A stretch of DNA of 64,000 nucleotides. Source: Haloplanus salinus. GTDB lineage: Archaea > Halobacteriota > Halobacteria > Halobacteriales > Haloferacaceae. The stretch is from assembly GCF_003336245.1 (NCBI RefSeq), contig NZ_QPHM01000001.1:2484113-2548112 (forward strand), in the 5' to 3' direction. Positions 5,268 to 24,179 of this stretch are shown here, one piece after another. Position 1 is the stretch's first letter; the number at the start of each line of letters is the position of its first letter. The notes beneath the pieces were generated by a model. The model had not been told where the DNA came from. It ran no database searches and saw only the letters and a program-made list of their open reading frames with translations. A program made the position numbers and the translations under genes.

Positions 5268-5762
5268 TCACTCCAGCCGCTCGGCGTACTCACGGTCGCG
5301 GTCCACCGCAACGGGACAGTCGCCATCGAGTTCGATTTTCCAGCCATCGAGTGCGTCCGGATCGTTGAGGGCAGCCTGTAGTGTCGTGCGAACGTCGTCG
5401 ACGTTCACACCGTAGTAGTCGCCGGGCACGCCGTGGAGATACTGGAGCGCCGTCTCGAACAGCGAGCGCATACCGTCGTCGTTCTCGAAGTCGACGTGTT
5501 TGTAGGCGCCCGCGGCAACTTGGACCATCCCGTGAAGGAAGGCGCTTTCCGTCGACCCGCTCCCGTAGTTGTACCACTCTGCTTCGAAACAATCATGCGC
5601 CTCATGGTACTCGCCGGCGTTGTAGAGGCGCACCCCATGAATTACTGCTCGTCGGAGCGTCCCGTGTTCCCACCCGTTAGACGGTCCACGGCCGTTATCC
5701 CACCCGGTGGGATCTCCCGAGGTTGGGGGGCCTACAGTGTCGTCTCGGGTGTGATCGTCCAT
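5268..5762 (-). CDS. DUF309 protein, island-borne spare copy
   Basis: A 164-residue DUF309 protein, exactly as long as the disrupted host gene would be when rejoined. By hand alignment it is about 80 percent identical to the host N-terminal 60 residues and about 70 percent to the C-terminal 104. It keeps the HDCFE..W motif and the [12 protein letters not shown] motif. It is encoded on the opposite strand, its stop only 34 bases from the junction. At the motif that forms the target it uses different synonymous codons (CAT, TGT, GAA against CAC, TGC, GAG). Function of DUF309 is unknown. It probably replaces the lost host activity. Confidence 0.9.
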
Positions 5763-9451: not shown

Positions 9452-10289
9452 CAGTCAACTGGATTTTGTGCTCACGACTCTATGGCGTCTTGAAGTATAG
9501 TTGTTCTCTTGGAACTCTATTCCCAGACAGTGTTCAGTATCTTAGTTTCGTCACGTTTCGATTGGTTCGAATGAGTCTGTCTTCATAATCGGATTCGGGC
9601 ATTAAAACGAGGTGAAGCGCCGTTTTCATCAAGGTTAGAGCTTCTCACGTGGTATCATACTCGTCCGTAGTATCCGCAAGAGGCACCAATCTACCCGCTA
9701 ACACCAGAACTATGTCGGGCAGCTGAGTAATCAGCCGGATTCACAACCGTCGAAATCGGCTGGAACACGGGTCGTGAGCACCGACGAGCGTAGGGGACGA
9801 TGCGACACCGCCCACTCTCAGAGTGCGTGTCGTGTTCATAATTGGTCTCCGTCTGGTGATTAGCTTCACTCAACGGAAGCCTGATTGATCGCTTCGTTGA
9901 GAACAGTCGTAGATGGCCCGATAGCGACGGCGAGCGGGTCACTTACGGGACACGGGGCCACAACCCGACCGTCGCAGTCACGGGACATTTGCTACTCGAT
10001 TTCCGTGATACCGCTGTTCTTGCGGTCGTAGAACCCGATTATGAAACGCAGCTAACCGGCGCTCCGATCGCTAGCACTCCTATACGCCCACCTCATCCCA
10101 CTCCTCCGAGTATGAATTCCCTATGTGCCCTACATTCCAAAGTCTGAGCCTTGTTGAATACCTCAGTTACTGACAGGGTTCAGTAAGAGTGCGGAATACA
10201 GGGTGTGTGTCGGCCAAGCGTATCGCCGGAGAGACTTACCGGATCAATCGGGGGAAATCATCATCAACCGTCTCTCTACATTGTCGCAC
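9452..10289. other. Gene-poor stretch of the island
   Basis: About 840 bases with no convincing gene. Short frames exist but have no motif. A small inverted repeat (arms TTACTGA and TCAGTAA, 10167-10186) lies near the right end. The stretch separates the broken nuclease gene from the defence-like genes and may hold decayed insertion-sequence debris; I cannot show that. Confidence 0.5.
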
Positions 10290-11174
10290 ATGAAGATCGA
10301 ACAGGGTACCTCATTCGGAAGTGTGGGGGAGCACGATGTCGATTTTTCGGTGGCTCAGTTGGTAGAGACCTCTGATTCGTTTAGGCACTGGTTTGTCTCC
10401 CAGACCGATTCCGCTCTCGATATCGTAGGGTACATTGGGGGAGTCCTACACGCGAGTTACGCCGGAGAAGGTGAATCCGATATTGAGTTCGGATTCCTCA
10501 CATCGACTGGGGATCGACATATCGTACTGGTGGAGAACAAAATCTCCGCCGAGAAGCAACCGAACCAGATCGAACGATACTACAACCGGGGAGAGTTCCG
10601 TGTCGAACGTGACGGCTGGGACTCGTACACAGTCTGTTTGCTAGCCCCAGAGAGCTACGTATCAACGGAAGATGAAGCAGAGTTCGATTCGATCATCTAC
10701 TATGAGGACGTTCTTGAACAAATCAAGAGTGGTTCATACGATGGTGGCGATTTCCTCGGGCCTGTGTTTGAAGCGGCACTGACGAAATCACGCACGTCGA
10801 ATACAGCCGACGCAACCGATACGCTCGAGAAACGGGAACAGCTACGAGCCGCAGCAGATCGATACATCAGTCAGCGAGTCGAAGAACTCAGGGCCGAGCT
10901 TTCCGAGCGACGTCTTGAAGAGACACAACGAGAGCTTGATAACCTCGAAGCGTACGCAGAAGCGGAGCGAGAACGGATTGAGGAATTCATAGAGAATTAC
11001 GAACGAAAGGCGGAGGCTGGGTCGGATATGGACATCGCCATTCGCGGACAGCGTCAGCGCCTCAATAAGCTCGAAGAGCGAATAGGGATGCGGAGAAAGG
11101 AGCTACAGAGAAAGGCACAGGTCATCTCGCTGGCCCCGGAAGTGGAAAATCTCTGTCTGACGCTTCCTGTATGA
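10290..11174 (+). CDS. PD-(D/E)xK nuclease-like protein with coiled-coil C-terminus
   Basis: A 294-residue protein. The N-terminal domain has an Asp in GESDIEFGF and the motif VLVENKIS with a following PNQIERY, the pattern of PDDEXK_4-type nucleases (D...ExK plus a downstream Q..RY). The C-terminal 120 residues form a long charged coiled coil ending in APEVENLCLTLPV, like tails found on some SNF2-type helicase proteins (inference). It converges on the 980-residue helicase gene, 291 bases away. It is probably the effector nuclease of the neighbouring gene set, which is inference from position. Confidence 0.75.
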   Translation: MKIEQGTSFGSVGEHDVDFSVAQLVETSDSFRHWFVSQTDSALDIVGYIGGVLHASYAGEGESDIEFGFLTSTGDRHIVLVENKISAEKQPNQIERYYNRGEFRVERDGWDSYTVCLLAPESYVSTEDEAEFDSIIYYEDVLEQIKSGSYDGGDFLGPVFEAALTKSRTSNTADATDTLEKREQLRAAADRYISQRVEELRAELSERRLEETQRELDNLEAYAEAERERIEEFIENYERKAEAGSDMDIAIRGQRQRLNKLEERIGMRRKELQRKAQVISLAPEVENLCLTLPV

Positions 11175-11465: not shown

Positions 11466-14408
11466 TCATAATAGCCCCTCAAGCTCGTCATCGTCAGGCT
11501 CGTCGATCACAGACGACTCGTCTTCGTCGTAATCGAACTCGTCCGTATTGACGACGCCGAGATAGATTGCTCCCTCGTCGTTGATCATCATCGCGTGGTT
11601 CGCCGTATTGACGATCACGGTTCCGCCACCCTTGCGCCGATGGACGTATTCCGCGATGTCTTCCGCGACATCGTGTTGGATATATTTCCGTCCTTCAGCC
11701 GTCTTCTCGAACGGGCGCCCGTCCGAATCGACACTAAACCGATAGCCCTCCCGAGGGCCAGGGTACGGATCTCCCCGTGAAAGATCCTCCACGTCGGGGA
11801 TGGGACGCTCCGTTCGGGGTTCTGGAATTTCGTCCGCGGTCGCCTCCCGAACGCACTCCCAGAACGGCGTCTTCGGATTCCAGTCCCCGGCTTCCCAGTC
11901 GCCATCCGGATCCCACGTGAGGTGTGACACGCCCGCCATGGAGAGCTGGTCGTCCCAGTCGTACTCGCGGAAGATCTTCTCGTCGACCGTATCTCGCGCG
12001 TAGAGTACGTACAGTTCCGAGCTGTCCGTCGGATCGTCACCAGTGCGGAGGACGCGACCCAGGGTCTGAATTCGTTGGCGAACGCTCCCGGACGAGACCC
12101 GCACGATCCCAACGTCGGCACTCGGGACGTCGACTCCCTCGATGAGCGCTTTCACGCTCAACATGACGTTCGCGAACCCATTGTCGCCAAACCACTCTAC
12201 CGCAAAGTCGTTCCACGCGTCGCTTCGGTGTCCGGAATGATACATGACTGGACGGTAGTCGGCATCGAAAAAGAGGTTCTCGAGGGCTTTGTCCGCCTTT
12301 TCGAGTCCGGGATACTGTTCGTAGAGTCGCTGTCGACTCCCGTACTCTTCCGACACACCGCCGGTTCGATAGTTCCGGCCACGAGACTCTGCCGGGGCGA
12401 CCATCCGCTCCAGTTGCTCGATACGTTCCTGAAAGACGATACTTTTTTGTGATTCCTCGATGGTCTCTTGGAGAAGCGACAGCGTGATCGCTTGGCGGCC
12501 GATCGCGTCTGCGATCAACGTGCGGCGCTGTTGGGTGTAGCGGAAGAAATCCGAGATGGCTGGCGTCGGGTCGTCGGTCGAGCTGGATATCGTCTGTAGT
12601 TTCTGTGCGAAGCTCCCGTTTAGTTCGTATAGTCGGTTCCCGTATCGCGTCTCGATGTCGGAGACGGCGTCGACGACGTTCTCCGTGAGTTGTTCGTACG
12701 TCGTCCGCTCGGCGTCTGTGAGGTCGAACCCGACGTACTTGACGCGGAACTCGGGGATGAGGTTCCGCTCTATCGCTTCGTCGTACGTCAGTTCGTAGTA
12801 GATCTCTCCGAGTTCGTTTAGGAGCATCTCGTCTTTCGCCGAGCGTTCGTCGTCCTCCGGATTCGACAGGGGAGTCGCAGAGAGCCCGAGCGAAGCGGTT
12901 CGCCGGTAGTCGAACACGTTGGAGAACGTGTCTCCCGTGTATCGATGACACTCGTCGGCTACGAGGAGGTGTTCGTCCGGGTCGTCCGCTTCGAGCGTCT
13001 CGCGGAGGAAATCATCTTGCACGGCCGAATTTACGATACTGACGAGGATCCTGCGTCCGTCCCCGAATCGATCTTTGTGTCCGCCACCAGCCCACCCGAC
13101 ATCGTCGGCAGGGACGTTGAGTTTCTCCACGAGTTCGCCGAGCCACTGATGCATGAGGACTTTCGTTGGGACGAGGATCGTGACGACGCCGTCGAGATGG
13201 TTGTCCAACCACCGCCGAACGACATCGAGCGCCATCACGGTCTTTCCGGCTCCGGTGACGACCCGTGCGATCCCGCTTTCGGCACTTCTTCCGTTCGAAC
13301 CGGACGTTTCCGACCGAGATTCGAACCACCGATCGGCAGCCTCCCGTTGCCAGTCGTACAGTTCGAACTCGTCGGGGAACGTGTACGCGGAGCGGTCTGC
13401 GCCAGCCCAGCGCTCGAAGTCGGCACGGGAAAGCCCCGCTCCAGCGGACGTTTTGATTCGAAACGCTTCCGACACGTCGGCGGCGTTGGCAATTCGCTCT
13501 AAGATGTCCGTAGATAGTCCGGAGAGATCGTTACCGGTAAACGAGGGGAATCGCTTTTGAATTTCTTCGCGGAGGTTCTTCTGACGATTCTCTGCTTCGA
13601 CGTACTTCTCCGAGCGACGAATCGTCGGCTTCGAGACGTCGTTTTCGTATGCCGCGGTCTTCAGGTAGTCACGGCGGAACGTGTCGAAAAGCTGTCTGTG
13701 TTTCCCGTGCCCGCCGGATTCCCTGTAGAGATAGTACTTCGCGAGATCGCGTTTGACCCGGTCGGAGGGGGGCTCGACGTGTGCCCCCTCTCGCTTGAGC
13801 CACCGTTCGAACGTCGGAAGAAGATCCGCGTTTCGCAGTCGGTCTTGCCAGCGGTCGGTCGGCTCAGTCGCTACGTAGCCACCCTCCATTTGGCTGGCCG
13901 CCCCCAGTCGGGCGAGGAGCGTCGGATATCCTCGGATTCCCTGATCGTTGAACTCGTAGTCGTGATCGTCTGCCAGTATCTGTTGGATTTCGCCGCGCTT
14001 GAGTGCTTCGTCGGAATTTCGAAGAATCCGGTGGATCGACCGCAGTCCGTCGATGCCTTCCGGGAATTCGCCGTTCAGTACCCAGGTCCGCTTGATAGCG
14101 TACCAGAAGAAGGTTTCAAAGTCGATCTCGTTCGCTTGCCAATCTCGGGCGAACTGCCAGACTGAGATCGTATCGTCGGACCGCTGTCGGAGAACGCCGA
14201 GCTGACAGTACGTGGATACGATCCGTCGCATATAGCTCTCCGAGTATCGATCCCCGCCGTCGGGCTTCCGTAACCGCTCTCGCGCCGCGTCGACGAACGC
14301 CGACTTATCCAGTTCGCTGGCCGCCTCCGTGGCTAGCGTGACGAACACCTTACTCCGATGTTCGGTTTGCTCGACGCCGAAGAGGGGCGGTGGGAAGCGC
14401 CGGCTCAC
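11466..14408 (-). CDS. SF2 DEAD/DEAH-type helicase (980 residues)
   Basis: A large ATP-dependent helicase or translocase. An N-terminal region of about 340 residues has no known motif but reads as winged-helix-like helical DNA-binding modules. The helicase core follows: Walker A VTGAGKT at 384-390, DECH at 485-488, SATP at 510-513, and a C-terminal RecA domain with QTLGRVLRTGD. The layout resembles XPB/type III-restriction-like helicases. Start is GTG at 14408, six bases after the stop of the accessory gene, so they form an operon. The acidic tail ends DEPDDDELEGLL. Confidence 0.88.
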   Translation of the reverse strand: MSRRFPPPLFGVEQTEHRSKVFVTLATEAASELDKSAFVDAARERLRKPDGGDRYSESYMRRIVSTYCQLGVLRQRSDDTISVWQFARDWQANEIDFETFFWYAIKRTWVLNGEFPEGIDGLRSIHRILRNSDEALKRGEIQQILADDHDYEFNDQGIRGYPTLLARLGAASQMEGGYVATEPTDRWQDRLRNADLLPTFERWLKREGAHVEPPSDRVKRDLAKYYLYRESGGHGKHRQLFDTFRRDYLKTAAYENDVSKPTIRRSEKYVEAENRQKNLREEIQKRFPSFTGNDLSGLSTDILERIANAADVSEAFRIKTSAGAGLSRADFERWAGADRSAYTFPDEFELYDWQREAADRWFESRSETSGSNGRSAESGIARVVTGAGKTVMALDVVRRWLDNHLDGVVTILVPTKVLMHQWLGELVEKLNVPADDVGWAGGGHKDRFGDGRRILVSIVNSAVQDDFLRETLEADDPDEHLLVADECHRYTGDTFSNVFDYRRTASLGLSATPLSNPEDDERSAKDEMLLNELGEIYYELTYDEAIERNLIPEFRVKYVGFDLTDAERTTYEQLTENVVDAVSDIETRYGNRLYELNGSFAQKLQTISSSTDDPTPAISDFFRYTQQRRTLIADAIGRQAITLSLLQETIEESQKSIVFQERIEQLERMVAPAESRGRNYRTGGVSEEYGSRQRLYEQYPGLEKADKALENLFFDADYRPVMYHSGHRSDAWNDFAVEWFGDNGFANVMLSVKALIEGVDVPSADVGIVRVSSGSVRQRIQTLGRVLRTGDDPTDSSELYVLYARDTVDEKIFREYDWDDQLSMAGVSHLTWDPDGDWEAGDWNPKTPFWECVREATADEIPEPRTERPIPDVEDLSRGDPYPGPREGYRFSVDSDGRPFEKTAEGRKYIQHDVAEDIAEYVHRRKGGGTVIVNTANHAMMINDEGAIYLGVVNTDEFDYDEDESSVIDEPDDDELEGLL

Positions 14409-14414
14409 TCTCAG

Positions 14415-15263
14415 TCACCAGTCCTCTGGATCGTCGTCTGGGAAGTCAGTGGTGTCGTCCTGCACTCGATGCTCGTCTGGGTCTGTCGTAGAGGTCGGCC
14501 CGAGCGAGCCGGCCCACGAGTTGAGTTGTGCACGTTCCTCCGCGGAGAGTTCGTCCGTCAACGACCGCGGTTCGCCGACCTCGATCGGAACGGTGTCGAC
14601 CGACCCGACGTAGATGGGAAGCATCTCTACCCCTCGTTCACGGCGGAGGACGATGATGTTCTTGATCACCCGTGGGAGGTCGTGAAGCTGTTCGCGCGTT
14701 TGCGTGGGGTTCGGAGGCTCTTCGACGAGCGTAATGACGTCGTTCCAAGGAGTAATTCGGAACGACCCACCACGGGGCTTGAGTCGCTGGAGCGTAGCGA
14801 GAACGTCGTCTGGGAGGTCAGTTTCGACGGGATGTCGCTTGTGCGTTCCTGGATGTTGCCACCAAATCCGGTCGCCACCGATCGAGAACTTCGCGCCATC
14901 GTATACACTCGGCCAGAGATCTCCTGAAGAGAGCCTGTCGGGTCGAATGTCGACACTATACTCCGGTGCGTCCTGGGGCACCAGTTTGTCGGCACTGGGG
15001 AGTTCGCCGACGTACCTGACCTCGTAATCATCGCCCTCCTCGACGCGGGTGATGACCGAATTGTCTTCCGTAACCCGTACGCGGCCGCCGAGCCGCTTGA
15101 GCGAGAGCAAATTGTCGGCGAGTTCGTCGGGTGTCGGCTCGACGTAAAGCCGGTCGGTCCCTTGGTACACTTGCCACCAGACGTCACCGTCCGGATTCGT
15201 CTGAAGCCGATACCCTCGGTAGTAACCGGGCCACTCGTCTCCGGGATGGATGTTTGAGTTCAT
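14415..15263 (-). CDS. Accessory protein with duplicated WPxxYxG / RVT module
   Basis: A 282-residue protein with two copies of one module. Each opens with an aromatic WPxxYxG motif (WPGYYRG; WPSVYDGAKFS), has a WW pair, then G-x-x-R-V/I-T...VIT-x-VEE, then a YVG motif. The same module occurs twice in the protein at 21438-22334. No catalytic residues stand out; it may bind DNA or protein. First gene of the leftward operon with the helicase; ATG at 15263 preferred to TTG at 15275. I know no named family. Confidence 0.8.
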   Translation of the reverse strand: MNSNIHPGDEWPGYYRGYRLQTNPDGDVWWQVYQGTDRLYVEPTPDELADNLLSLKRLGGRVRVTEDNSVITRVEEGDDYEVRYVGELPSADKLVPQDAPEYSVDIRPDRLSSGDLWPSVYDGAKFSIGGDRIWWQHPGTHKRHPVETDLPDDVLATLQRLKPRGGSFRITPWNDVITLVEEPPNPTQTREQLHDLPRVIKNIIVLRRERGVEMLPIYVGSVDTVPIEVGEPRSLTDELSAEERAQLNSWAGSLGPTSTTDPDEHRVQDDTTDFPDDDPEDW

Positions 15264-15300
15264 TCGCTCTCCCAATTGAACTGTCTACTGAGATTTCCGC

Positions 15301-15315: not shown

Positions 15316-15437
15316 GTGTCGTGGCGGATAGAACAGGTACGGTATCTCATCCCACATCCGATTCACAATATGTCTCCGAGCAGGACTGTCCGACAGCCGA
15401 GAATTGATATAGTCACGAAGGTCATGCTTTGAAAGAT

Positions 15438-17219
15438 ATGTCGACGGGAGACGATTCCCGTGGAGATCCCGGCGTCAACTGGCGATTCGACGACCCTCCA
15501 TCTCTAAGCGGGATCGGCCGGACTGACGGCGCTGACGCGTCCTCGCACATCCAAGCCCTCCAAGCGTATCGGTTCGGGGTTACTCAGAGCGAACAGGAAC
15601 TGCTGGCGATCGAAGAGATACAGGACAAAGTAAAGCTCCTCGACCACCAGTTGACTGCCGCTCATCGTGCGATAACCAGTATGGGCCGGGGGACGCTCTT
15701 CGCCGACGAGGTGGGGCTCGGCAAGACGATCGAAATCGGGATGGTTCTGAAGGAGATGGATCTCAGAGAGACGCGGGATTCGTTCCTCGCCCTCACGCCC
15801 GCACAACTCGCCAATCAGTGGCAACGGGAGCTGCAAGAGAAATTCGGCCTCGATTTCGTCTGCAATTACGACGACGAATTCGACGGCTTCGCCTCTCACG
15901 ACAAGATCGTCGCGAGCGTAGATACGGCGAAGAGCGAGCGATACATCGACGACGTCCTTCGCCGGCAGTGGGATGTCGTCGTCCTCGACGAAGCGCACTA
16001 CGTTCGCAACGAAGATACGCAGCGATACTCGCTCCTCGAGCGTATCGAGTACGAGGAGGCGTTCTTCGCGACTGCGACGCCGATCCAGAACGACGTCACG
16101 GACCTCTACAATATCGTCAACCTCATCCGCCCCGGATTGCTCGGCTCGCGTCGAGAATTCAAAGACCGGTACGTGGTCGATGGGGACGGGACGAAGGTGA
16201 AAAACGCCGACGAACTACAGCGGAATCTCAACCGGGTGATGATCCGCAACCGACGCGAGGAGACGGACATCGACTTCACGAACCGGAAGGTTCGGACGAA
16301 CGCGTTCGATCCGACTGACGATGAGAAAGCACTCTACAACGCGGTGACGGACTACGTTCGATCCAACTACTCGAGCGAGGATGCGAAGCACCTCGTTTTG
16401 CTGTTACTGCAAAAAGAAGTCGTGAGCAGCCCGAGTGCCGTTCTCTCGACCATCGACAAGTGGCTCCGTGGAGAAGGGTCGGCCACGATCTCCGCGAGCG
16501 AGAAAGAGCAGTTACGGGAGATCAAGGATGTCGCCGAGTCGATCTCGACGACGACGAAACAGGAGCGATTGCAGAGCGTCGTCAAGAGGATCCACGACCA
16601 ACTGGAGACGACACGAGTCGTCGTATTCACACAGTTCCGGTCGACACAGGATGAAATCGCAGCGAGTGCCCGAGAACTAAACCAACCGGTTCACCTCGTG
16701 AACGGCGATTTCTCCAGCAACGAGAAAGACGCCGTCGTCGCAGACTTCGAGCGGGAAGGTGGAGTACTCGTCGCGACGGACTCCATCAGCGAGGGGCGAA
16801 ATATGCAGTTCTGTAACGTGATGGTCAACTACGATTTGCCGTGGAACCCGATGAAAGTAGAGCAGCGAATCGGGCGGATCGACCGCATCGGTCAGGATCG
16901 TGAGGTTCACGTGTTCAACCTCGCGCTCGCGGATACGGTCGAAGAGTACGTCCTCGACAAACTCTACGAGAAGGTCAACCTCTTCACGCAGTCGATCGGT
17001 GGCCTTCGAGAGATCCTCTCGCGGATGGAGAAATCGGGGTCGGACTTCGAGCGGGAAGTGTTCGAACGTCTGCGCACCGCGGACGACCGCGTCGAACTGG
17101 AGAACAACTTTGAGGAGATGGCCGTCGACCTAGAGACGAACAAGGAGGCGGCGGAGAAAATGAGCGAGTTCAACAAGGGTGTCTTCGAAAGCTTCGAATT
17201 CGGGGGTGAAGAGGCGTGA
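15438..17219 (+). CDS. SNF2-family helicase/translocase
   Basis: A 593-residue SNF2/RapA-like translocase. Motifs: DEVGLGKT at 90-97, DEAH at 184-187, TATPIQN as motif III, SEGRNMQFCN, and GRIDRIGQ as motif VI. ATG at 15438 chosen over TTG at 15429. It lacks the long C-terminal extension common in related single-chain proteins; that part seems to sit at the start of the next gene, whose GTG overlaps this stop (GTGA). First gene of a tightly packed four-gene operon. It probably moves on duplex DNA. Confidence 0.92.
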   Translation: MSTGDDSRGDPGVNWRFDDPPSLSGIGRTDGADASSHIQALQAYRFGVTQSEQELLAIEEIQDKVKLLDHQLTAAHRAITSMGRGTLFADEVGLGKTIEIGMVLKEMDLRETRDSFLALTPAQLANQWQRELQEKFGLDFVCNYDDEFDGFASHDKIVASVDTAKSERYIDDVLRRQWDVVVLDEAHYVRNEDTQRYSLLERIEYEEAFFATATPIQNDVTDLYNIVNLIRPGLLGSRREFKDRYVVDGDGTKVKNADELQRNLNRVMIRNRREETDIDFTNRKVRTNAFDPTDDEKALYNAVTDYVRSNYSSEDAKHLVLLLLQKEVVSSPSAVLSTIDKWLRGEGSATISASEKEQLREIKDVAESISTTTKQERLQSVVKRIHDQLETTRVVVFTQFRSTQDEIAASARELNQPVHLVNGDFSSNEKDAVVADFEREGGVLVATDSISEGRNMQFCNVMVNYDLPWNPMKVEQRIGRIDRIGQDREVHVFNLALADTVEEYVLDKLYEKVNLFTQSIGGLREILSRMEKSGSDFEREVFERLRTADDRVELENNFEEMAVDLETNKEAAEKMSEFNKGVFESFEFGGEEA

Positions 17220-20200
17220 GTTCGCTCGATACGAGCGTGCTGAATCGGGTGAGTATCAAGCGTCTCACCGAAGCCGTAATCGAAACAGCGGGCGGGAGCG
17301 TCGATCGCTCATCGCCGAAACGGTGGTCGGTCACGCTTCCACCCGGACTCGCCTCACACTCCAATTCGGGCGTGGACGGGCGCAACCACTCCCGGAATAC
17401 GGGGAACGACTCCCTCGACGCGATCGCTTCCGGTATTGAGGAGGAACACACGCCACGTGCCGAATCGGAGACGACGCTCGTGTTCGATCCGTCTAACGAA
17501 GATCCCGAGATCGACGACGTGGTCGTTCGTCCGGGGACGCCCTTCTTCAACTCGCTCTTGGATCTCGCCCGAGAGGGCGAGAGTGTCGCATACGTTCGTC
17601 TCGGTGCGAGTGAGTTACAGATCCACGAACCACCGATATTTGAAGTCGTCGAGCCGGACGCTCGCATCACGGACTTCGAACCGACGGGTGCGGATATCGC
17701 CCTCGTGTTTCACTTCCACGTCCAGATCGAGAGCATCCAATCGTATCATGAAGAACGGTTCGAGACGATCACTCTCGATGTCGACAGCGGTGCTCGACTC
17801 TCCGGACTCACCGAACGACTCGTGTCCCACTTCGATACGCTATCGAGGAACGCACGGCCCGCCGAGCCGGTCGACATCGACGATGCTACCGTCGAGCGAC
17901 TCTACGATTCGGCGACAGGGATCCTCCAAGAGCGAGTTTCTTCGGATGTTGACGAACTGAAGACGGACGCTGATAGTGCGGCTAGCGAGCGCGAAGAGGA
18001 GATTCGGACGCTCTACGAACAGCGTCGGGAGGAGTTAGACGAGGAACTCGAAGCGCAACAGAAGGAGGTTCAGAAGTGGAACAGGAAAGCCAGAAATGCC
18101 CGAAATAAGAGCACTCGTAACCGGTATCTTTCGAAGCGACAGGAGGCCAAGCAGGAACTTGAGCAACTCGAAGCGGAGATCGAGGAGCGCAAAGAGGAGC
18201 TCCGAAAGGAGGAGCAAGAGCAGATTTCGACGACGACTGCTCGATACGCTATCGACGTAGACGTCATCTCGGTCGGGACGACCGTCGTTACGTACGACCG
18301 TGGGCATCTGACGGTCGAAATCGAAGACGAGGAACGAGTTGGGGAGACGACCGTGGTGTACACGCCCGCGACGGACACGTTCGACTCCCTCAGTTGCGAC
18401 GATTGTGGCACGGAGTTCGATCCGACTAGCCCCCCGGTCGTCTGCGACGACGGCCACGTGATCTGTCCGGCGTGTCGATTCGAGTGCGACGGCTGTGGTA
18501 CGCTCGTGTGTGGTTCGAACCCCGACGTTTCCATTGAGTGTGAATACTGCGGAACTGTGGAGTGCGAGTCGTGTCAAGACACTTGTTCCGGGTGTGGACG
18601 CGTCGTTTGCGCTGCGCACCGAGCGACGTGTTCGGCCGACGGCAATTCGATTTGCACCCTCTGTGGGACTGACTGTTCGACGTGCGAGACGTTCTACTGT
18701 GACGATCACCTACTCGTCTGTGAGACGGACGGCGAACATCACTGCCTCGACCACACTCAGGAGTGTGATTTCTGTGGGGATCCGACCTGCACGGATCACC
18801 TCGGCGAGTGCGTCGTCTGCGATGGCGGGTTCTGTGTCGGCGACCGTAACGACGCCGTCGACGTCGATGGGGCCTTGTGTCCGGATCACTCGGGGTACTG
18901 CTCGCACTGCGACGGCTACCACACGACAGACGACCTCCGGACGTGCAACGTCTGTGAATCGACGGTCTGCAACGACCACTCGGAGACCTGCTCGATCGGT
19001 GGCGAAATTGCGTGTCAGACTCACCTCGTCACTTGCGAAACGGACGACGAGACCGTCTGTACTACTCACGCCATCGACTGTTCGGTCTGCGGTGGGGCGC
19101 ACTGCGAAGAACACGCGACGACGTGTGACGCGTGCGACGAGGCGGTTGGCACGGAGCACGTGATTCCCTGCACCGACTGTGGAGATCGCGTCTGTCCGGC
19201 GGATCGATACACGTGCGAGGACTGCGGCGACGTATTCTGTACGAAACACACCGCGACGTGTACCGACTGCGGCGAGCGATTCTGTTACGACGACCTAACG
19301 AACTGTGATTCTTGTCACAGCTGGACGTGTGACGAACACCTCACCGAATGTTGCATCTGTAGCGGCGAATTCTGTGGAGCGCACACGACGGCGTGTGAGG
19401 ACTGCGGCGACGACCTCTGTACGGCCCACGCCGTCGACTGCACGTCCTGCGATGGCGTCTACTGTGAGGAGCACGTCGCGGAATGCGATATCTGTGGGGA
19501 CTTCACGTGTCTGGACGATCTCCAGTCGTGTGGCGTCTGCGGGGATCACGTCTGTTCGGCGCACTTGGTCTGGTCTCCGCACTCGGAAGCGACGCTCTGT
19601 GTCGATCACGCCGTCGAGTGCAGCGAGTGTGGAGCGTACTGTGCCGAACGGGATGCCGACGAGTGCTTCGTCTGTGATGCTCTGGTCTGTCCAACCCACG
19701 CAACTACCTGTGAAATGTGTGGAGAGATCACGTGCCCGGACGACACGATCGCCTGTACCGACTGTGACGAACCCCACTGTCCCCGACACACGGCAGAGTG
19801 TCACGACTGTGGGGACGTGTTCTGCGCCGATCACCTGCTCGACTGTGCTGGATGTGACAGTGTCGTCTGTTGGTCGGACACCGTCGACTGTGCCGCAGAT
19901 GGTGACGTGTTCGCGTCGTCACACCTCGAAGCGTGCGCGACCTGTGGTGAGAGCTTCTGCGGGGGGCACCGCGATGAATGTACGATCTGTGGAGAGATTC
20001 GCTGTGAGGACCACGTCGCGAGATGCGCGGTAGACGACGAGCCGTACTGTGAACGCCACCTATCGAGCTGTTCCCTGTGCGAGGACGATGACGGAACCGG
20101 AGCCGAATTGCTCTGTCCCGAGCACGTCGTCAGCTGCGATGTCGGCGGTGAATCGCTCTGTACCCATCACGCTCGGACGGATCCGATAACCCGTGATGTC

Positions 20201-20500
20201 GTCTGCCCGGAGCACACCGAACCGTGTGAACTCTGCCGACAGGAGTACGTACCGAGTACGATCGATGAGGGTCGCTGTGAGACGTGCAGAGCGCTCGGCG
20301 AACGTACCGTCGACGTTCCCGAAGAGATTGCCGACGGATTCTGGTCAGTCAAGGGTGCAGCCAACGATTCGTACCTCGTCGTCTACGGGAAACGTCTTCT
20401 CGGTGCCAACCAACTGGTCGTCCTCGACCGAACGACCGGCGACGAAGTCGATCGCTGGAAGGTCGGCGTTCTCGCCCGACTTCGTGGGGTGTTCAAATGA
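17216..20500 (+). CDS. Giant zinc-repeat protein with coiled coil
   Basis: A 1094-residue protein. Residues 1-240 resemble an extension of SNF2 proteins (RPGTPFFNSLLDLA). About 240-345 is a charged coiled coil. From about 393 to 1025 runs an array of 15-residue repeats of form C-x2-C-x4-C-x2-H-x3, for example CTDCGERFCYDDLTN then CDSCHSWTCDEHLTE. Many units are perfect; some change position 4 to Asp/Gly or position 12 to Asp. The last 60 residues form a small separate domain (GFWSVKGAANDSYLVVYG). It should bind dozens of zinc ions. GTG start overlaps the SNF2 stop; the next ATG overlaps its own stop. Likely partner of the SNF2 enzyme. Confidence 0.9.
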   Translation: MSSLDTSVLNRVSIKRLTEAVIETAGGSVDRSSPKRWSVTLPPGLASHSNSGVDGRNHSRNTGNDSLDAIASGIEEEHTPRAESETTLVFDPSNEDPEIDDVVVRPGTPFFNSLLDLAREGESVAYVRLGASELQIHEPPIFEVVEPDARITDFEPTGADIALVFHFHVQIESIQSYHEERFETITLDVDSGARLSGLTERLVSHFDTLSRNARPAEPVDIDDATVERLYDSATGILQERVSSDVDELKTDADSAASEREEEIRTLYEQRREELDEELEAQQKEVQKWNRKARNARNKSTRNRYLSKRQEAKQELEQLEAEIEERKEELRKEEQEQISTTTARYAIDVDVISVGTTVVTYDRGHLTVEIEDEERVGETTVVYTPATDTFDSLSCDDCGTEFDPTSPPVVCDDGHVICPACRFECDGCGTLVCGSNPDVSIECEYCGTVECESCQDTCSGCGRVVCAAHRATCSADGNSICTLCGTDCSTCETFYCDDHLLVCETDGEHHCLDHTQECDFCGDPTCTDHLGECVVCDGGFCVGDRNDAVDVDGALCPDHSGYCSHCDGYHTTDDLRTCNVCESTVCNDHSETCSIGGEIACQTHLVTCETDDETVCTTHAIDCSVCGGAHCEEHATTCDACDEAVGTEHVIPCTDCGDRVCPADRYTCEDCGDVFCTKHTATCTDCGERFCYDDLTNCDSCHSWTCDEHLTECCICSGEFCGAHTTACEDCGDDLCTAHAVDCTSCDGVYCEEHVAECDICGDFTCLDDLQSCGVCGDHVCSAHLVWSPHSEATLCVDHAVECSECGAYCAERDADECFVCDALVCPTHATTCEMCGEITCPDDTIACTDCDEPHCPRHTAECHDCGDVFCADHLLDCAGCDSVVCWSDTVDCAADGDVFASSHLEACATCGESFCGGHRDECTICGEIRCEDHVARCAVDDEPYCERHLSSCSLCEDDDGTGAELLCPEHVVSCDVGGESLCTHHARTDPITRDVVCPEHTEPCELCRQEYVPSTIDEGRCETCRALGERTVDVPEEIADGFWSVKGAANDSYLVVYGKRLLGANQLVVLDRTTGDEVDRWKVGVLARLRGVFK

Positions 20501-21441
20501 GCCGACACGAACTCCCAAGCTGGTACGAACCGGACGATGTCTCCGAGTCGATGCAGAACGTGGCCGATAATTCCGACGTGTATCTCGAGGAAGTGGTAGA
20601 TATCCTCCAGTACCACGAGTTCGATGCGCCTCGGGATCGAATTCGGGAGCTCGTCGAAACGGCACGAGATCAGATTTCGGACCTCCACTCTGACTCCGAG
20701 GCACAGAGCGAAGTGACCGGCGAACCTCGTTCACTGGAGCCTCGATTCGTCGACGTCACTGACGTTGGATATCTCGATACCCAAGATTTCGCGCTCGTTC
20801 TTGGTGTCGTCCTCTCTCGCTACGAGGGTAGTTTCACGGTTCCGGAGGTGGGGGGGGATGTCGCAGTCGATCTTCTCTGGAATCGTCAGCACACGACCGT
20901 CGCGCTCAGAACGATCTCCCGCCCTCCCGAGATGCCCGTGGAAGAAGCGGACGTTCAATTTGTCGTCAGAGGAGACACCGATCCAGATACGAGTCGGTCA
21001 CCGTCACGACTTGGTATCGTGTCGAATGCAGGCTTCACCAACGATGCACGCGATCTCGCTACGGCGAACGATATCGAGCTGTTCGGGGAGGATCACCTCG
21101 AACGGTGGCTTGCCGATACGATGCTCACGCACGAGACGCTTGGAGCTCTCCTCGAAAGCGAGGATAGCGACACCAGCGAGTTCGAAGACGTACTCGCTGA
21201 TCTTCAGACGATCCCGGGGATAGTGCGTGAGCGCGACCCGATTGGCGACGTAACTCCGCCAGGGTGGTCAATCAACGGTGGCGGAGACACGACTGTCTCG
21301 GGAGTGAAACAACGGATGCCAGTCGCGGAAGATCCACCGTCGCCGGGTACGCACGGCGAACTCTACGCCGATCCGAGTGAAGATGGTGACTTCGGTGCGT
21401 TCGATCGCTTCGTGCACGAACTGCAGGAGGATACTGAATGA
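20497..21441 (+). CDS. Mrr-like restriction-fold protein with degenerate active site
   Basis: A 314-residue protein. The middle carries an Mrr-type fold: GGDVAVDLLW, then VALRT, then LGIVSNAGFTNDARDLA and IELFGEDHLERWL, which match the closing part of Mrr domains. In active Mrr proteins the strand after the Asp ends in QxK; here it reads LRT, so the catalytic Lys is missing. It may bind DNA without cutting. The N-terminal 90 residues are helical and acidic, the C-terminal tail disordered. ATGA overlaps with both neighbours place it in the SNF2 operon. Confidence 0.8.
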   Translation: MSRHELPSWYEPDDVSESMQNVADNSDVYLEEVVDILQYHEFDAPRDRIRELVETARDQISDLHSDSEAQSEVTGEPRSLEPRFVDVTDVGYLDTQDFALVLGVVLSRYEGSFTVPEVGGDVAVDLLWNRQHTTVALRTISRPPEMPVEEADVQFVVRGDTDPDTSRSPSRLGIVSNAGFTNDARDLATANDIELFGEDHLERWLADTMLTHETLGALLESEDSDTSEFEDVLADLQTIPGIVRERDPIGDVTPPGWSINGGGDTTVSGVKQRMPVAEDPPSPGTHGELYADPSEDGDFGAFDRFVHELQEDTE

Positions 21442-22334
21442 GTCTCATGTTCGAAACAGAGTCGACGAAGGTACCGATCAGCCACGAACAGTCCGTCACA
21501 GTGTCGCCGAAGCAGCCGTGGCCGTCGGCGTACCGGGGCTCCAAATACAGTCTCGTCAGCGACGAAGATTTCGGCGACGATGCTGTGTTGAAGTGGGAAC
21601 AACGGGATCTATCTATCTTCGCGGAGCCACCGAGAGGACTTCGGCGGACGATGACGCTGGCCGGCAAGAGCGGCGGATACGGGAGCTTCCGGGTCACCGC
21701 TCACGGCGAGGTTCTGACCAAGGTGGAAGCAGACGACTATTCGAATCTCGATCAAGCTCCCGTTTCGGAGGGGTGGATCCCGGTCTACCTCGGGAAGCTC
21801 TCCGGAGAGATGGACTTCGGGAGCGTCGAAATCGATCCCGACCCGCCACGCGACGGCGTCGCCGTCTGGACGGGATTTCCGTTCAACCACGGCGAGCGCT
21901 GGTCGGTTAGTCACGACGGCAAACTCATCTGGAAGTGGCGAGACTATCGCTTCAAGTCGGCGTTCGATCACGCGGAACTGATAGCCGCATACGGTGACTA
22001 TCGACCGAATCCGGGCCGACTGTACGTCACGGAACACGGTCACGTCTGGGTGAACGTTCCGTACGACGACGTGATGCCCGACAAACGATCTGAGATCGAA
22101 AACGCCGTCGCTGCTTGGAAACAGGACGCCGAAGCTCGTGGAGACGCCAGTACGCTTCGCCTCGTCAATCGTCGACTGGTCGCCACCAGTTCGACGGACG
22201 ATCCCGCCGACGGATATCTCCCCGTTCATCTCGGGCACCTACGGGAGTTCGACGGTGGGATGGTGCCACGGCCGATCGTCGACGACGAGGAGTACTTCCT
22301 CGAAGTCGGGCAGTACGAGGAAGTCTGGGAATAA
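21438..22334 (+). CDS. Accessory protein with the duplicated WPxxYxG / RVT module
   Basis: A 298-residue protein related to the product at 14415-15263. It opens its first module with WPSAYRGSKYS, followed by GSFRVTAHGEVLTKVE and IPVYLG. A second module has GRLYVTEHGHVWVNVP and YLPVHLG. Last gene of the four-gene operon, coupled by ATGA. Having one paralogue in each divergent operon suggests that both helicase complexes use the same type of adaptor, which is inference. Confidence 0.8.
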   Translation: MSLMFETESTKVPISHEQSVTVSPKQPWPSAYRGSKYSLVSDEDFGDDAVLKWEQRDLSIFAEPPRGLRRTMTLAGKSGGYGSFRVTAHGEVLTKVEADDYSNLDQAPVSEGWIPVYLGKLSGEMDFGSVEIDPDPPRDGVAVWTGFPFNHGERWSVSHDGKLIWKWRDYRFKSAFDHAELIAAYGDYRPNPGRLYVTEHGHVWVNVPYDDVMPDKRSEIENAVAAWKQDAEARGDASTLRLVNRRLVATSSTDDPADGYLPVHLGHLREFDGGMVPRPIVDDEEYFLEVGQYEEVWE

Positions 22335-22487: not shown

Positions 22488-23783
22488 TCATTCCTCGGCC
22501 AATTTGTCTAAAAGAGCGGCTTTCACGTCGGGATCATCCAACAGTTCATCCAGCTTGTCTATCTTCGCTTGCGTCTCCGTATCGTCGGGGTCTGTTTGCT
22601 TGTAGGACTCTTTTACATCGGTGCTGACCTTGTCCTCCACCTCTTTGACGTCCGGTGAGTACACCAACCCACAATAGGGGCAGGACTTCCAATCGCCCTC
22701 TAATCGTTCCCCGCAACGATCACACACCGGCGGCGTGAGCGGACTGTCCTCGTCGGGATCGCGGAGTCCCTGAGCCACCTCGGCGGCCTCGATGTGATCC
22801 TCATCAGTGAGGTGGGCATAGGTGCGTTCCATCACCTTGCTGTCGGGTTCGTGTCCAATCAGGTGCTTTATGTTGTCGTTGTCCATGCCGTAGTCCCGCT
22901 TACACACCGTCACGAAGTAGTGGCGGAAGTTGTGAGCGTTCACCGGCTTGTCTACCCCGGCTGCATCCCCGATTCGCTGGAGCTGTCGATACAAGGTACT
23001 CGGATCTAGCTTGTCTCCCGGCTCCACGCCGTCACGATTGCTCTGATCGTGTTTGTGCGTGATGAGATAATCGTCCGGATCGCCAGTCGGGTGTTGTCGC
23101 ACCCAGTCACGAACGGCCTTATTGGCACCTAAGAGGGGTCGTTTGCCTTTCGCACCCTTGAGGTCACCATCGTCGTCGTTGAGATAGAAAATCCCATCTT
23201 CCGGCTTCACGTCCTTGAGTCTGAGATTCAAAATCGCGCTCCGTCGTTGACCGGTGTAGAGGAGTAGATCGACGAGGCAGATGTCCCGAGAACCGCGGCG
23301 TTTGGCTTCTTCGCGGAGGGCCTGCACATCCTCCTTGGAGAACATATCCCGCTCGTTGACGGAAGACTCGTCTTGTTCAGCAAAGTGAATTTCCTCCCGG
23401 TCAACTCCTAAGTCATCGTGGTAGAGGTAGAAGCGGCGAGTTGGGCCCTGAAAGTTCCGCACAGTGCTACTTTCTAATCCCTCGTCCTTGACGCCAGCAA
23501 CATTGCCGTTGAGATAGGCGTCCATCAGGGAGTTGATGTCGTAGGCAGTAGCTTCGGTCAGCTCCGGTTCCAAGTCTCGTGCCACGCGGCAGAGCGCCCG
23601 TGCGTAGCGAGCGAGCGTCCCGTCTTCCTTGACCTTTCCATCGGGCATTTGGTAGGTGTTCCGACGGGGGTCGTTCGCATCTAAAAATTCGAGTATTAGC
23701 TGCCTCTCCTCGTCGCTCACGTCTTCGTCATTCTCGATTCGCTTTCGGGCGGTTTCGTATCGCTCCCGCATTGATTTCGCCAT
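22488..23783 (-). CDS. Tyrosine recombinase (integrase) with C-terminal zinc ribbon
   Basis: A 431-residue XerC/D-like recombinase. Catalytic set: Arg at 180 (TGQRRSAIL), His284/Arg287 (HNFRH), His311 (LIGHE) and Tyr322 (RTYAHLT), all present. After the catalytic domain a zinc ribbon has CDRC at 354-357 and CPYC at 368-371, then an acidic helical tail. An N-terminal SAM-like core-binding domain is present. It sits at the right end of the island facing inward, 75 bases from the junction, the normal place for an element integrase. It presumably cuts inside the DUF309 gene. Confidence 0.93.
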   Translation of the reverse strand: MAKSMRERYETARKRIENDEDVSDEERQLILEFLDANDPRRNTYQMPDGKVKEDGTLARYARALCRVARDLEPELTEATAYDINSLMDAYLNGNVAGVKDEGLESSTVRNFQGPTRRFYLYHDDLGVDREEIHFAEQDESSVNERDMFSKEDVQALREEAKRRGSRDICLVDLLLYTGQRRSAILNLRLKDVKPEDGIFYLNDDDGDLKGAKGKRPLLGANKAVRDWVRQHPTGDPDDYLITHKHDQSNRDGVEPGDKLDPSTLYRQLQRIGDAAGVDKPVNAHNFRHYFVTVCKRDYGMDNDNIKHLIGHEPDSKVMERTYAHLTDEDHIEAAEVAQGLRDPDEDSPLTPPVCDRCGERLEGDWKSCPYCGLVYSPDVKEVEDKVSTDVKESYKQTDPDDTETQAKIDKLDELLDDPDVKAALLDKLAEE

Positions 23784-23864: not shown

Positions 23865-24179
23865 GACAAGTGGTACAACTACGGCGCCGGGTCGGTCGAG
23901 AGCGCCTTCCTCCACGGGATGGTCCAAGTCGCCGCCGGCGCGTACAAACACTTCGACTTCGAGAACGACGACGGGATGCGCTCGCTGTTCGAGACGGCAC
24001 TCGGGTATCTTCGGGGGGTCCCCGCCGACTTCTACGGCGTCGACGTCGACGACGTGCGGGCCCGGCTCCGGGCGGCCCTCGACGACCCGACGGCGCTGCA
24101 CGGGTGGCGGATCGCGCTCGACGGCGAGCGCGTCGACGCCACCGAGGTCGACTTCGCGTACGCGGACGCGCTCGAGTGA
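23862..24179 (+). pseudogene. DUF309 gene, 3' fragment
   Basis: The last 104 codons of the host DUF309 gene, beginning with the WYNYG motif and including [12 protein letters not shown]. No start codon or promoter of its own. Joined to 5055-5234 it gives a normal 164-codon gene. The sequence shows no other damage, which suggests a recent insertion. Confidence 0.95.

Follow-up and report, generated by a model that had tools for sequence, protein, structure and literature searches.

In zinc fingers of the FYVE and AN1 types, which fold as a cross-brace, the first and the third pair of ligands share one metal, the second and the fourth pair the other, and two zincs are bound. In the eukaryotic ubiquitin ligase Pirh2 (RCHY1), with six zincs in its N-terminal domain, three zincs of the CHY-CTCHY part staple successive small beta-sheets in an interleaved manner. 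Among SNF2 motors, RapA and BrxHII are described in a 2026 analysis (PMC12839542) as ending in a nuclease-like domain without activity, followed by a domain of five strands into which two long helices are inserted. We compare with these a locus of the haloarchaeon Haloplanus salinus, analysed in a stretch of 64,000 nucleotides ('the window': contig NZ_QPHM01000001.1, positions 2,484,113 to 2,548,112), which encodes a protein with a long array of 15-residue cysteine-rich units next to an SNF2 ATPase. With a probability of about 0.5, we read the array as a tail carried by one of the two parts of a split SNF2 motor, working as a protein-binding arm in a haloarchaeal anti-invader restriction system; the function is inferred.

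The array protein (1094 amino acids) is encoded by a single open reading frame (ORF) at 17216-20500 of the window, forward strand, with a GTG start. The SNF2 gene lies directly upstream and overlaps it by 4 bp; the sequence-only reading was right to see a long metal-stabilised array beside an SNF2 motor in a halophile. The parts of the two proteins are as follows.

15429..17219, forward strand: SNF2 ATPase core, 596 amino acids, GLGKT and DEAH motifs present
17216..18394, forward strand: the motor's C-terminal alpha+beta domains, split off from it and forming residues 1-393 of the array protein (hhalign, AlphaFold2 secondary structure)
18395..18475, forward strand: zinc-ribbon-like site 394/397 + 417/420, C-x2-C-x19-C-x2-C, predicted from sequence
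18485..20287, forward strand: zinc array of 15-residue units, predicted interleaved metal sites CxxC(n) + C-x2-H/D(n+1)
20288..20497, forward strand: C-terminal beta domain of ~70 residues, neutral in charge, kept in long- and short-array homologues

An array of about 630 residues at 18392-20290, some 40 unit lengths long and, over long runs, exactly spaced by 15 residues, had been proposed from the letters alone, and all of this held. The first and the last array cysteines are residues 394 and 1024 (nucleotides 18395 and 20287), a span of 631 residues or ~42 unit lengths (631/15), and the clear run noted at 19168-19560 is correct. The span contains 110 cysteines (17%); 79 pairs of them are separated by exactly 15 residues, vs 18.7 +/- 3.4 expected (maximum 30 in 1000 shuffles), and 32 of the 35 parsed units keep a single 15-residue phase between residues 442 and 951. 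Tandem Repeats Finder did not find a 45-bp tandem array in the window; such decay of the DNA repeat indicates that the array is ancient.

Position-specific composition was computed for 641 units of 17 homologous proteins. Cysteine occupies position 1 in 98% of units, position 4 in 82% and position 9 in 92%; position 12 is His (63%), Asp (26%) or Cys (7%), together 96%. Outside the ligand positions, Gly is frequent at position 5 (47%), and position 8 is hydrophobic or aromatic.

To see which ligands share a metal we considered ligands lost together across neighbouring units (offsets -4 to +4, non-redundant cases). When both CxxC cysteines of unit n were gone, C9 of unit n+1 was gone as well in 19 of 21 cases (90%), against a background loss of 12.5% (odds ratio, OR, 66; Fisher p 9e-15); within unit n itself, C9 was lost in 0 of 19 such cases, and no effect was seen at the remaining offsets between -4 and +4. 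The two exceptions (window residue 959 and residue 990 of L066) are loop-insertion units, in which CxxC is present but misparsed. Some cases are dependent, as homologous positions recur and only ~7 array positions are distinct, so the p value is too small; still, 7 of 7 distinct positions at a 12.5% background is far from chance. Newly fetched proteins were consistent in 7 of 7 cases, of which ~2 are independent and 4 are misparses at array starts, so that they add little. A metal site inside one unit, as the sequence-only reading had it for C-x2-C-x4-C-x2-H, or at any offset except +1, was rejected on the co-loss data. Each site would instead consist of C1 and C4 of unit n with C9 and His/Asp12 of unit n+1, i.e. 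C-x2-C-x19-C-x2-H, interleaving every 15 residues. The array would then be a continuous interleaved cross-brace in an open-ended chain, zinc being assumed as the metal.

With this pairing, parsing of the continuous runs gave 34 sites: four ligands are present in 24 of them, three in 7, and two or fewer in 3 (residues 547, 787 and 959, the last one being the loop insertion). The zinc-ribbon-like site in front of the array has spacing identical to that of the array sites, and in array-free relatives it is the only such site. If C4 of unit n was replaced, mostly by Asp or Gly, Asp12 occurred in unit n+1 in 3.4% of cases vs 26%, as if no more than one weak ligand were tolerated per site. The Asp substitutions, called systematic in the sequence-only reading, follow this rule; the alternation of unit types suggested along with them was not borne out, since Asp12 shows no autocorrelation (OR 1.09 at lag 1 and 0.89 at lag 2), which rules out strict alternation of two types.

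The AlphaFold2 model of nine units (mean predicted local distance difference test score 90.1; predicted template modelling score, pTM, 0.67) shows strand, knuckle, strand and turn in most units. Compared with known folds by VIA, this model matched FYVE-type fingers best (Z 4.4-5.0, root-mean-square deviation 2.4-4.4 over 48-57 residues); these occupy most of the top 20 rows, and AN1 follows with Z 3.5. Such scores are weak alone, yet the predominance of FYVE-type fingers agrees with the pairing derived from co-loss. Foldseek placed the CHY domain 2dkt at rank 6 (E 0.044), and fold searches with the whole array-protein model were dominated by coiled-coil matches. At the sequence level, a four-unit profile was matched by zf-AN1 in 22 of 24 members (best 2.1e-7), by FYVE and by the ANCHR B-box; among sequences of solved structures it matched the piggyBac cysteine-rich domain (CRD; E 0.003) and Vps27 FYVE (0.06). 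The window's own segment scored 24.3 bits against zf-AN1 (PF01428), below the gathering cut-off of 27.9, the whole array protein had no zf-AN1 match at E up to 0.1, and nothing in Pfam or NCBIfam exceeded a cut-off for the array. The lipid-binding motif of FYVE, R(R/K)HHCR, is absent from the array, where Lys and Arg make up only 3%. In the libraries searched, no described repeat family covers the array; a match of the whole array to one with known role is what the sequence-only reading had named as its refutation.

The motor itself is of a familiar kind: the SNF2 protein matched Pfam SNF2-rel_dom (5.6e-32) and Helicase_C (3e-21), DrmD of NCBIfam (1.8e-79, below cut-off) and of PADLOC (1.7e-76), BrxHI/II (2.6e-65) and RapA (4.9e-45). 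Its C-terminal part is found in the array protein. In the AlphaFold2 model, residues 1-393 have an alpha+beta part, then long coiled-coil helices (223-294 and 298-343) between strands; hhalign aligned this N-terminal part to the C-terminal halves of full-length haloarchaeal SNF2 motors of ~970-990 amino acids (probability 97.9, E 4e-13, 253 columns). The match was weak with a single-sequence profile of one SNF2 protein and clear with profiles of several motors; a Protein Data Bank sequence search with the N-terminal profile gave chiefly coiled coils and small zinc proteins. Taken with the RapA/BrxHII architecture, the alignment shows that one motor is divided between the SNF2 gene and the array protein: the first ~385 residues and the upstream SNF2 protein form one BrxHII/RapA/DrmD-type motor, and the array sits on the accessory piece. 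The array protein is thus more than a neighbour of SNF2, as its N-terminal third is the part that the motor lacks. A second split SNF2 pair, array-free, is present in the same genome (L036, contig C4). A PDDEXK_4-type nuclease is encoded at 10203-11174 of the window (forward strand); its last ~120 residues match the BrxHII C-terminus (849-971 of 971, E 5e-55) and may be one more part split off from a BrxHII-type motor.

Four further genes complete a six-gene locus.

20497..21441, forward strand: Mrr-fold protein, 314 amino acids, catalytic Gln/Glu-x-Lys lost, tail ending in GxLYADxxEDGDxxAFD
21438..22334, forward strand: UP2, uncharacterised, 298 amino acids, restricted to six-gene systems and UP1-UP2-helicase loci
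14415..15275, reverse strand: UP1, uncharacterised, 286 amino acids, divergent from SNF2
11466..14408, reverse strand: HEL, superfamily 2 helicase of PbeA/dnd_restrict type, 980 amino acids, co-directional with UP1

The SNF2, array, Mrr-like and UP2 genes overlap successively by 4 bp; UP1 and HEL diverge from them. The Mrr-fold protein matched Mrr_cat at E 0.029, below the cut-off, and its catalytic Lys position holds Ile, Ala, Val, Phe, Leu or Glu in 15 of 15 long-array homologues, vs QAK in 4 of 4 aligned short-array ones. UP1 is weakly similar to UP2 (BLASTP 3e-4). HEL matched ResIII (1.2e-20), PbeA (2.3e-42) and TIGR04095 (4.5e-30; 105 bits vs a cut-off of 600). The locus lies in a stretch of 53-62% GC inside a region of ~69% GC, next to an integrase. 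The tyrosine recombinase of the island (22488-23783, reverse strand) has a short terminal zinc ribbon (residues 354-374). The low-GC island is flanked by a 259-nt inverted repeat (5320-5578 and 23869-24127, 80% alike, 18.3 kb apart), the two copies being pieces of one gene, presumably DUF309-like.

Proteins with the same 15-residue period, whose search the sequence-only reading had recommended, exist both inside and outside the class. In the class-wide sample of 391 genomes, 73 had a relative, and ~23 of these 73 carry arrays. The six-gene set was also found in plasmids of Halorhabdus tiamatea and Haloferax lucentense, in Haloferax marisrubri, Halarchaeum nitratireducens, Halorientalis regularis, Halopenitus malekzadehii and Halobellus rarus, and, whole or partial, in Haloarcula amylovorans, Halorubrum salsamenti and Haloquadratum loci; the set is conserved and patchily distributed. 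Values of the ratio of nonsynonymous to synonymous substitution rates (dN/dS) of 0.03-0.35 in all genes where it was computable show that the system is maintained by purifying selection. In a genome of the same genus (G289, locus L064) the six-gene locus is broken, both the SNF2 gene and the array gene being split; decay of the system thus takes place within the genus. In one Haloferacaceae metagenome-assembled genome (L072, 188-3241) the Mrr-like protein encoded upstream of UP2 is larger, with 1017 amino acids. The 1245-residue array gene of Haloferax lucentense plasmid pSVX82-3 (L032, 9980-13717) is missing from the gene table of PLSDB, which lists three opposite-strand hypothetical ORFs in its place; other members may be absent from protein databases.

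The SNF2 tree resolves into four groups, all of them fully or almost fully supported. Group A has the six genes and ~34-45 units; group B has SNF2, array and Mrr, ~11 units and an intact Mrr (Mrr_cat 5.6e-19, QAK motif). Group C is array-free, with one zinc-ribbon-like site, and stands beside DUF499 or DUF1156 genes (Hma/BREX-related); group D has ~10 units with interrupting linkers, and one member lies beside a DrmMI-like methylase. Because UP1-UP2-HEL also stands alone, without the remaining genes, in Halorussus, group A looks like a fusion of two modules accompanied by loss of the Mrr active site, a view that rests on one branch of the tree.

A phylum-wide profile search for array units (393 genomes) matched nine genomes outside the class, with six units fused behind an Mrr nuclease with intact motif. 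These fusions in other Halobacteriota (L083-L091, L129-L135; a zinc ribbon, Mrr and six units; 520-560 amino acids in the proteins that were read) are solitary genes without conserved neighbours or SNF2. With an intact Mrr beside short arrays and Mrr-array fusions elsewhere, array and Mrr have been associated twice. A first array-only scan of genome contigs and two scans of viral contigs found no relative, nor did tblastn against 50,697 phage records. In BFVD, the nine-unit model finds similar structures (E 3e-6 to 1e-4) among predicted phage proteins, namely an amidoligase, a LIM-domain protein and proteins of podoviruses; judging from models, phages may have comparable arrays.

What the array does for the motor was considered along these lines. 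The split SNF2 motor would engage, scan or pump DNA, and the acidic, metal-stapled tail would be a long arm that binds partner proteins along its surface. In short-array systems the partner would be the Mrr-type subunit, supposedly the original nuclease; in six-gene systems the partners would be the pseudo-Mrr, UP1, UP2 and the helicase, having replaced the nuclease. The arm could hold or release an effector, or bind an invader protein as a trigger. Between Haloferax marisrubri and H. lucentense the loci share 92-99% identity except in the array, which differs by exactly 120 residues, i.e. eight whole units (36 vs 44), and another family member (L053) contains a 135-bp, three-unit tandem repeat in the array in 5.0 copies. 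A length that shifts by whole units and is not fixed does not suit a precise ruler and favours a role in reach, avidity or recognition. Taken separately, an anti-invader role of the operon is quite likely, and for the array as arm or scaffold the odds are about even. Several points weigh against this reading as a whole: the fold matches of the array are weak (Z <=5); the full-length model has a pTM of 0.34; zinc is an assumed metal and the rod a predicted shape; in the six-gene type, with the Mrr active site lost, no further nuclease motif was identified; and the operon contains no modification gene.

One could suppose, as a possible yet doubtful alternative, that the array is an invader sensor, whose variable middle recognises viral proteins and activates the motor or effector in the manner of STAND-type repeat sensors. 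Array and Mrr are the fastest-evolving parts (non-Cys array identity of 34-43% vs 75-79% for SNF2 in the window clade), conservation is lower in the middle of the array (mostly 0.11-0.25) than in its N-terminal units (0.26-0.47), and the copy number differs by whole units; however, a plain spacer would drift likewise, and array dN/dS, 0.12-0.19 where computable, gives no indication of positive selection.

The charge of the array bears on two other readings. With 3.0% Lys and Arg and 21.4% Asp and Glu, its net charge is -18 per 100 residues, vs -7 for SNF2 and about -6 to -10 for SNF2 and most neighbours, and all homologues have strongly acidic arrays (-12 to -18 per 100). Such extreme acidity argues against nucleic-acid binding and makes direct contact improbable; the array may bind proteins or mimic DNA. 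As a mimic, the acidic rod would sit where the motor, or an invader enzyme, otherwise binds DNA, and would stay there until it is displaced; acidity along the whole array in every homologue is what one would expect then, but haloarchaeal proteins are acidic in general, and although nothing speaks specifically against mimicry we regard it as a long shot. It is slightly harder still to see the array as a row of zinc knuckles in contact with DNA or RNA in front of the motor. By sequence, the solved structure closest to the array is the piggyBac CRD, a finger of cross-brace type which binds the DNA of transposon ends (PMC8086355); against this stand the scarcity of Lys and Arg and the related PiggyMac CRD, likewise acidic and without DNA binding. 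If the array stored or soaked up metal, or had merely arisen through Cys-rich drift, the cysteine content would be accounted for, but this is made very improbable by the fixed ligand geometry, the co-loss rule, the conserved ends, the operon partners and purifying selection. Independent fingers with one metal per C-x2-C-x4-C-x2-H unit, a motif that does offer four possible ligands, are equally improbable, as CxxC loss tracks C9 of the next unit and never that of its own.

Returning to the protein-binding arm, motor and helicases are of known kinds; the interleaved rod, like the operon, matched no named family in the libraries searched, and searches of PubMed Central gave no description of array or operon (subscription papers lay outside their reach). 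Tentatively, at somewhat less than even odds, we propose a distinct class of repeat proteins: an open-ended metal-stapled solenoid of ~10-45 sites, built up one unit at a time with each zinc linking neighbouring units, and serving as a variable arm or sensor in an archaeal restriction system not described before; its growth would have accompanied replacement of the Mrr nuclease by a second helicase module. If this is true, archaea chain the cross-brace finger, single in eukaryotic FYVE, AN1 and RING-like proteins, into long rigid arms that need no hydrophobic core and attach to defence motors; the BREX/DISARM/Hma family would gain a six-gene haloarchaeal defence system; the natural series of 0, ~8-11 and ~35-45 units would let the effect of a repeat tail on a DNA motor be tested; and protein design would have a modular salt-proof scaffold.

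As to folds, the array would share with FYVE and AN1 fingers the sites of ligand pairs one and three (here CxxC of unit n and C-x2-H of unit n+1), short hairpins and the knuckle C-x2-C-G-x2-phi-C-x2-C/H (phi, hydrophobic); these fingers are closed, with two zincs, whereas the array would have ~35-45 sites in an open chain. The short interleaved zinc spiral of Pirh2 shows the principle proposed for the array, in which interleaving and short strands are predicted, the match to 2dkt having only E 0.044; no evidence of common descent was found.

As to systems, the island lacks DrmA, DrmB and DrmC of DISARM (none among nine island proteins, the DrmA match of SNF2 reflecting shared helicase similarity; PglZ, DrmA and DrmB were likewise missing among proteins tested), and the DrmD models stay below the NCBIfam cut-off. 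To the BREX-related Hma and DUF499-DUF1156 systems the link is through array-free split-motor relatives, which adjoin DUF499 (HmaC-like) or DUF1156 (HmaB-like) genes; the six-gene operon of the window has no HmaB methylase (DUF1156) or HmaC DUF499 ATPase and instead has the Mrr-like protein, UP1, UP2 and the PbeA-like helicase. HEL is a relative of the PbeA/DndI-type helicases of phosphorothioation-dependent restriction, though far below the NCBIfam cut-off, and the operon has no dnd or pbe partner genes. Zorya ZorD likewise combines an SNF2 motor with an Mrr-type nuclease, and the short-array Mrr matches its nuclease part (1.6e-19); ZorA and ZorB had no match among seven island proteins, and here motor and Mrr are separate subunits, with a zinc array and, in the long-array type, an inactive Mrr. 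In architecture the motor resembles BrxHII of type 3 BREX, RapA and DrmD of DISARM, in which a pair of C-terminal alpha+beta domains follows the SNF2 core and the second of the pair contains two long coiled-coil helices; here, these domains are encoded by a separate gene and have gained a zinc ribbon and the giant array of metal sites.

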